This document shows, one piece after another, positions 28,799 through 29,974 of a DNA stretch of 33,448 nucleotides. The first letter of the stretch is position 1; every line of letters starts with the position of its first letter. This stretch comes from a virus, in IMG/VR virus record IMGVR_UViG_3300020000_000048, positions 1-33,448 of that record; one strand, given 5' to 3'. A model generated the notes under the pieces. That model ran no database searches, was not told the origin of the DNA, and worked only from the letters and a program-made list of their open reading frames with translations. Both the position numbers and the translations under genes were made by a program.

Positions 28799-29029
28799 AT
28801 GTTCACGAATCTACCACCGCTTGTCAAGAACTCCGCGCTGGCTTTCGCCGCCGCGTTCCTCACTTCGTTCGCGGGCTTCCTCGCGTTTACGGACACGACT
28901 GACCTCCCTGGCTTGAAGGCCGCGGGGCTAGCCGCCGTCTACGCTGGGGGCCGCGCACTCGTGGGTTACCTCAAGGAGCAGACCACCGGCGTTCCCTTCG
29001 CTGTGGACACGGAGGCGCCGGTAGAATAA
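28799..29029 (+). CDS. Putative two-pass holin
   Basis: Predicted 76-residue protein, ATG at 28799 with AGGAGGCG just upstream; a longer in-frame start inside the previous gene was rejected. There are two hydrophobic segments, SALAFAAAFLTSFAGFLAF (about 12-30) and LKAAGLAAVYAGGRALVGYL (about 39-58), separated by a short acidic turn. The C-terminus is polar and acidic. Size, topology and place after the endolysin fit a small class II-type holin. Membrane pore function is inferred from the arrangement. Confidence 0.75.
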   Translation: MFTNLPPLVKNSALAFAAAFLTSFAGFLAFTDTTDLPGLKAAGLAAVYAGGRALVGYLKEQTTGVPFAVDTEAPVE

Positions 29030-29032
29030 CAA

Positions 29033-29140
29033 AGTATGATTTAGTATGATTGCGGATTTATTGTCATAAAAAACTCCTCGTGTGACCTGGGCAAACGGGT
29101 TTATATGACTGAATCTAACTGAATCATACTGAATCATACT
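29033..29140. repeat. AT-rich inverted array of period-10 repeats
   Basis: AGTATGATT occurs at 29033-29041 and 29043-29051, exactly 10 bases apart. Its reverse complement AATCATACT occurs at 29122-29130 and 29132-29140, also 10 apart. ACTGAA further repeats every 10 bases at 29108, 29118, 29128 and 29138. The two 19-base arms are complementary at 18 of 19 positions (the exception is a G-U wobble in RNA) with a 70-base spacer. The island is clearly AT-rich against its GC-rich surroundings. Candidates are an operator or promoter control site, a replication-origin iteron array, or a long RNA stem. TGTGAC and TATGAC, 17 bases apart around 29081-29108, are a weak promoter candidate. Confidence 0.8.
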
Positions 29141-29181
29141 GAAGCCTTCCCCTGACAAGGAAGGAGTTAGGAGGTGAACCC

Positions 29182-29271
29182 ATGACCATTGGTTATTGGG
29201 CCGCGCTTATGTCCGCGGTTGCTGTCGGCGTTATCGTCGCTGAGCTGTTGACAAAGGCCTTCATCCACTAA
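29182..29271 (+). CDS. 29-residue single-pass membrane mini-protein
   Basis: A short gene missed by length cut-offs: ATG at 29182 to TAA at 29271. Upstream TTAGGAGGTGA (29167-29177) is close to a perfect complement of the 16S rRNA 3' end, the best ribosome binding site in the window. The peptide is M-T-I-G-Y-W, then a hydrophobic stretch AALMSAVAVGVIVAELL and the basic/polar end TKAFIH, giving one membrane helix. It is the last plus-strand gene before the convergent terminator. Function unknown; possibly a lysis modulator or membrane-acting toxin-like peptide. Expression is strongly suggested by the ribosome binding site, not proven. Confidence 0.75.
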   Translation: MTIGYWAALMSAVAVGVIVAELLTKAFIH

Positions 29272-29280
29272 CGAACCCGT

Positions 29281-29338
29281 CGGGAAGCTTCCTCCCCTTC
29301 CCGGCAAAGCAAAGGACCCCCCAACCGGGGGGTCCTTT
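29281..29338. terminator. Bidirectional terminator between convergent arms
   Basis: Two hairpins lie in tandem. The first pairs CGGGAAG (29281-29287) with CTTCCCG (29297-29303). The main one is AAAGGACCCCCC (29311-29322), loop AACC, GGGGGGTCCTTT (29327-29338), a perfect 12-bp stem. It ends in TTTT on the plus strand and has the matching A-run for the minus strand. It sits between the last plus-strand gene and the end of the minus-strand operon, so it can stop both transcripts. Confidence 0.93.
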
Positions 29339-29359: not shown

Positions 29360-29974
29360 TTAGCCGATGCTACGCTTTCTTGCGGCGTAGAGCGAGGCCA
29401 ATCCGAGCAGCAAGAGACCGCCACCCGCGACGTACAACCAGGGGTTGATGCCGGTGAAGGCTGTCTTCTTTGGCGGCACGACGCCCTTCTTCGGCCCATT
29501 CGGCGAAGGCGGAGTAATCGTGACGGTGGGGGGCGGGGTGGAACTCGTGCTCGTGCTCGACGGTGATGGCGTCGGACTGTCCGATGGGGACGATGTGGGT
29601 GTGGGTGTAGGACTTTCGTCCGTCGTCAGCACACATCCTGCCTCCAGGACCTCCGCTCCGGTCTCACCGTTCGGGAACACGAAGTCGAGGTTCTTCCCGG
29701 GGTAGCTGAACACACCGCCGTACTTGTCGGTGTACTCGTACGCCGGGATGATGTCCCCGCCCAGGCCGTTGCCGACCTGCTCGTGGTCATTGTGTCCCCC
29801 TTTGACATAGCCGTCCGACGCGATGTCCGTCGTGATGACCACATAGGGGTTGGTCGCCGAGCCGGTTCGGTGGCACAGGGTCACCTTGTGCTCGGGTGGC
29901 TTGGTGGCATTCGCGGCGGTCATCAGACCGAGCGAGGCCACCACGGCCACGAGTGGTGCCAGGAACTTCTTCAT
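29360..29974 (-). CDS. Secreted, sortase-type wall-anchored surface protein
   Basis: Predicted 204-residue protein starting at 29974 (RBS GGGAGGAC upstream). Signal peptide MKKFLAPLVAVVASLGLMTAANA, cleavage after about residue 23. Residues 28-115 contain HKVTLCHRTGSATNPYVVIT, GHNDHEQ, GGDIIPAYEY and a second Cys (C114), a pattern familiar from actinobacterial secreted proteins. A Ser/Thr/Pro stalk follows (about 120-170). The C-terminus is TAFTG (171-175), a hydrophobic helix to about 196 and basic ARKRS, a variant sorting signal of the LAxTG/LPxTG class lacking the leading Leu. It would put a phage protein on the host wall; superinfection exclusion is a possible role, as inference. Last gene of the minus operon, ATGA-coupled to the mini-ORF upstream. 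Confidence 0.85.
   Translation of the reverse strand: MKKFLAPLVAVVASLGLMTAANATKPPEHKVTLCHRTGSATNPYVVITTDIASDGYVKGGHNDHEQVGNGLGGDIIPAYEYTDKYGGVFSYPGKNLDFVFPNGETGAEVLEAGCVLTTDESPTPTPTSSPSDSPTPSPSSTSTSSTPPPTVTITPPSPNGPKKGVVPPKKTAFTGINPWLYVAGGGLLLLGLASLYAARKRSIG

Follow-up and report, generated by a model that had tools for sequence, protein, structure and literature searches.

An AT-rich site with phased repeats and an attP-like layout

Between the convergent gene arms of the uncultured phage genome fragment analyzed here (a 33,448-base IMG/VR record, hereafter the window, whose contig ends are not mapped termini), we find an AT-rich island in which exact, helically phased repeats surround a motif that recurs at the genome ends and in the attP regions of actinophages. 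Our best explanation, to which we assign a probability of roughly 0.38, is that the island is a cis-acting site for an attP-like multi-protein–DNA complex, built as in the tyrosine-integrase actinophages. We do not claim that it is an attP, because no integrase, tRNA core, or conserved attB was found.

The left arm of the window, on the plus strand, carries terminase (668-2185), portal, and other late genes followed by small lysis-type genes, the last of which (28799-29029, plus strand) encodes a 76-aa protein of the small membrane-protein type. The right arm, on the minus strand, contains an exonuclease-like gene and a DNA polymerase A gene, the latter interrupted by the contig end; the last gene of this arm (29360-29968, minus strand) encodes a secreted Pro/Ser/Thr-rich protein with a C-terminal membrane anchor. 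The island (29030-29150) contains the whole repeat element and lies between the last lysis-type gene and a 29-aa hydrophobic open reading frame with a strong ribosome-binding site (29182-29271, plus strand), beyond which a terminator-like hairpin (29311-29338) marks the closing of the convergent arms. Its GC content of about 0.34 is the minimum of the window, the next lowest value being 0.52; the first-pass annotation had described it as the only strongly AT-rich stretch, placed just before the junction of the arms, and both points are borne out.

Within the island, two copies of AGTATGATT with a 10-bp period (29033-29041 and 29043-29051, together forming the left arm at 29033-29051, plus strand) face two reverse-complement copies (29122-29130 and 29132-29140) across a 70-base spacer. 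The resulting 19-nt arms are 95% complementary, with 18 of 19 positions pairing between the left arm and the inverted portion of the right arm (29122-29140, minus strand). The full right-arm array (29108-29143, plus strand) reads ACTGAATCTA, ACTGAATCAT, ACTGAATCAT, ACTGAA at the same 10-bp period, with ACTGAA starting at 29108, 29118, 29128, and 29138. An inner inverted repeat is formed by GTCATAAAAA (29063-29072, plus strand) and TTTATATGAC (29100-29109, plus strand).

The repeats are real, exact, and far above chance, and the initial description of facing pairs and of a fourfold ACTGAA is thus confirmed. When as many as 3 mismatches are allowed, the double unit still occurs at a single locus in the window and in none of 100 dinucleotide shuffles. 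Across 400 shuffles of the island, 19-mer inverted repeats reached at most 16 matches and 10-bp tandem repeats at most 13, against observed best values of 18 and 17. The 10-base period had also been taken to place the sites on one face of the DNA. This holds within each arm, where the phase is exact, but not between the arms: a distance of 79 bp, or about 7.5 turns at 10.5 bp/turn, separates the inner units of opposite arms, which in straight B-DNA would leave the two arms on different faces.

Several other identities for the island were considered and set aside. A terminator scan made calls at 29317-29332 and 30300 and none at the island, which lacks the short G+C-rich stem and U tract of an intrinsic terminator, and the target-site duplication of an inverted transposon or MITE was not seen by eye. 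No matches were returned by Rfam and tRNA searches of the window, a direct search with the island DNA against phages and plasmids gave nothing useful, and no close cultured relative of the window phage was found. A search of public collections for 10-mer arrays returned tandem ACTRAATCNN arrays in an AT-rich phage and at 39 genome loci. The phage array (L008:7790-8260 and L009) is long and non-coding, has a 10-bp period with units in both orientations, and lies near a terminase gene; these arrays look like independent 10-bp minisatellites, and we claim no link between them and the island.

Position and period persist in a relative while the repeat unit changes

We compared the window with three relatives from IMG/VR: G001 (IMGVR_UViG_3300037070_001864, 49.6 kb; terminase identity 62%), G004 (3300018063_000023, an incomplete contig of 43 kb; identities of 72% for terminase, 61% for the exonuclease, and 56% for the polymerase), and G005 (3300044976_000013, 31.7 kb). 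G004 has an island of its own (L076:13840-14035, minus strand), which at a GC content of 0.35 is the minimum of that genome and occupies the same place as in the window, between the last lysis gene and the convergent terminator. Its repeats keep the 10-bp period and the inverted layout with a different unit, GTCTTATCAT rather than ACTGAATCAT: GTCTTATCAT recurs at period 10 and appears once more, inverted, at a distance of 150 bp, and a core of 19-22 bp is present as two inverted copies. When the window and G004 islands were aligned and compared with 1000 shuffles, the same-strand score was reached by 3 and the opposite-strand score by none, the latter because the core is flipped between the two phages. 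In the more distant G001 and G005 the island is absent, and the arm junction holds the terminator alone.

A layout retained with a different unit would be expected if the arms co-evolve with the protein that binds them, and the pattern seen in this one relative supports the earlier suggestion of an array whose helical phasing serves cooperative binding by proteins. Concerted slippage is a possible alternative source of the changed unit.

The relatives also differ from the window in other respects. G004 lacks the 29-aa open reading frame, has no visible counterpart of the secreted-protein gene at the corresponding place, and carries an additional, incomplete copy of the exonuclease-like gene (L076:4409-4741), whose 110 aa have 47% identity to the beginning of the gene in the window. 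G001 carries 21 tRNA genes between its portal and capsid genes (L055:4613-6633); the window has none. The ends of the G001 contig (L055:9-83 and the end of L057) have about 75 bases in common, and the final bases resemble sequencing adapter.

The central motif recurs at actinophage genome ends and beside integrases

At the center of the island lies CCGTTTGCCCAGGTCACACGA (29078-29098, minus strand), which contains the dyad CGTGTG-ACCTGGG-CAAACG (29079-29097) and is related to a motif, GCGTTTGCGCAGGTCAGAGGC, of actinophage ends and att regions; the islands of both the window and G004 contain the core TTTGCCCAGGTCA without mismatch. In a blastn search, the G004 island matched the final 70 bases of the Rhodococcus phages Yogi and Bonanza. 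The form GC[GA]TTTG-NN-CAGGTCAGAGG lies 49-141 bp from the right end, in 1-2 copies, in RedRock, Yogi, Sbash, Snenia, Milly, and AnnaL29. A consensus search matched hundreds of actinophage records, and in an evenly spaced listing that contains many related records, the motif fell within 150 bp of a genome end in 38 of 51 actinophage rows. Instances of the 21-bp GCGTTTGCGCAGGTCAGAGGC and its variants include L085:2312-2379 (the Yogi end), L087, L088, L089, L090, and L103:1501. To our knowledge, this recurrent motif at actinophage ends and beside some integrases has not been described. In terms of motif score, G004 (24.0) is strong and falls among the end copies (21-29), while the 17.3 of the window lies inside the range of shuffled genomes (12-18, up to 18.1).

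Some internal copies adjoin integrases. In Tachez, the motif lies 127 bp upstream of the tyrosine integrase gene int, in a region where 11-bp repeat pairs and two motif copies surround what appears, from our reading of the sequence, to be a tmRNA-like core; tRNA or tmRNA cores in such integrase regions are assigned here on that same basis. JoshKayV has several motif copies beside a tyrosine integrase, with 11-bp repeat pairs; Phaded has a copy beside a tyrosine integrase; and in Joe the motif is 44 bp from the annotated attP. Genome ends are nevertheless its commonest location, so the motif by itself does not mean attP. The occurrence of the motif both at cos ends and in attP regions is at least as suggestive of a site of attP or cos type as of the regulator or initiator site first proposed; that proposal is supported as regards the array and overlooked the shared central motif.

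Two candidates for a partner of the motif were discarded: an HNH endonuclease is missing from the relatives, and mIHF, a published candidate factor, is reported to bind attP with no intrinsic preference for particular sequences (PMC3724605).

The island resembles the attP sites of tyrosine-integrase phages

In mycobacteriophages, the attP sites of tyrosine integrases are organized as a central core flanked by repeat pairs of 10-11 bp, and the integration cassettes usually lie right of the lysis genes, at the genome center; the CrimD attP has two 11-bp repeat pairs, inverted, around its core, and the Omega group has 10-bp pairs (PMC3203893, PMC3706429). The island has the same layout, with paired arm-type repeats flanking a core, and the same position, to the right of the lysis genes where the arms meet. 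The likeness extends across CrimD and Tachez (cluster K), Omega and BAKA (cluster J), and JoshKayV, and the motif occurs in or beside the attP regions of Tachez, JoshKayV, and Phaded as it does in the island. Unlike those sites, the island has the motif itself at its center, a spacer of 70 bp between the arms (about 175 bp in Tachez), and no tRNA- or tmRNA-like core in that spacer.

Integrases normally adjoin attP, and the missing integrase is a serious difficulty, the main objection to an attP-like reading. Neither PF00589 nor PF00239 had a match in the window or G001, and for PF00589 a threshold as loose as E <= 1 still gave no hit in G004 or G005. The window covers both flanks of the island, with an integrase in neither, and none was found adjoining the site or elsewhere in the window or G004, both of which are incomplete contigs. 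A comparison of the 19-mer core, as a candidate host attB, with 396 genomes of the Dactylosporangium phylum showed no conserved match; the 2 one-mismatch hits are approximately the chance level.

If the attP-like reading is correct, a multi-protein–DNA complex would assemble on the island, with the paired 10-bp repeats acting as arm-type sites for a phage-specific protein and the central motif read by a factor common to many actinophages, which would shape or mark the DNA between the arms. Site-specific recombination may take place there now or may have done so in the past; the integrase would then have gone unseen, be supplied in trans, or have been lost. Protein binding, the resemblance to an intasome, and the role in recombination are all things that we infer from the arrangement of the DNA.

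Alternative roles for the island

Among the alternatives, the one that survives best, though we consider it unlikely, is an operator or other regulatory site, at which a phage or host protein on the phased repeats and central dyad would control transcription around the junction, for example by silencing read-through or driving a short transcript. The window and G004 share the dyad CGTNTG-N7-CANACG, and the motif lies between divergently oriented genes in Joe, Tachez, JoshKayV, and FlyingTortilla, in the last case without an integrase. However, the island sits between convergent operons, with just the terminator downstream in G004, and a consensus scan found no sigma-70-type promoter.

We would give even less credence to a replication origin, in which the repeats would be initiator iterons and the AT-rich spacer the unwinding element. 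The coincidence of the GC minimum with the island in both phages and the iteron-like repeats with inverted symmetry are consistent with this idea, and in cluster A prophages the origins are found in a broadly similar region of the genome (PMC7157519). Short phased repeats and an AT-rich stretch are likewise features of lambda-type iteron origins. Those arrays are direct, however, whereas that of the island is inverted; no initiator gene was recognized nearby, the island is absent from two relatives, and cumulative GC skew at the junction, a measure confounded by gene orientation, has a local maximum rather than a minimum.

A packaging site (cos or cosB-like), with the motif marking terminase action and the repeats binding the small terminase subunit, seems a little more doubtful again. 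It would fit the prevalence of the motif near genome ends and its position upstream of terminase in G001, G005, L063, and L064. The island shares its motif sequence with the non-coding right (cos) ends of Rhodococcus phage Yogi and Mycobacterium phages RedRock, Sbash, and Milly, but those copies lie about 50-140 bp from the physical end and have no 10-bp phased arms. A cos site would be close to terminase, as the motif is in the relatives, whereas 28 kb separate the island from that gene; next to the island's copy we saw no cohesive-end sequence and no sign of the G-rich element that accompanies the motif where genome ends are known.

A role at the RNA level, as a hairpin in the plus-strand transcript for RNase III-type processing or 3' end protection, is very unlikely. 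The RNA stem noted in the first-pass annotation is strong in the window: plus-strand RNA forms an extended hairpin (-40.6 kcal/mol, z -6.7) that is more stable than that of the minus strand (-31.2, z -4.2) and has 5 G-U pairs to the latter's 1. The prediction does not carry over to G004, where folding is unremarkable on both strands (z -2.0 and -1.7) and the minus strand is the more stable, and a hairpin has no need of 10-bp tandem repeats. The fold may simply follow from the inversion of the arms.

Finally, although in about 20% of cluster A phages parABS replaces the integration cassette (PMC7157519) and the RedRock parS also has short phased repeats, a centromere-like parS array of an extrachromosomal prophage is highly improbable, because ParA and ParB have no match in the window, G001, G004, or G005, and the RedRock array is laid out differently, as eight direct copies of an 8-bp motif.

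Implications for actinophage DNA-handling sites

The attP sites and packaging ends of actinophages have so far been studied separately. We tentatively raise the prospect, which we hold to be speculative, that GCGTTTGCGCAGGTCAGAGGC is the site of an actinobacterial factor (from the host or widely shared among phages) acting at both cos ends and attP, and that the island, with its phased arms and no recognizable integrase, is a third kind of place where it acts; such a putative factor would be comparable to IHF in its role at lambda attP and cosB. That one motif is common to attP, to packaging ends, and to an attP-like island in a group with no detected integrase suggests a shared DNA-binding factor, and the island itself has the appearance of a place where a complex that handles DNA would dock.
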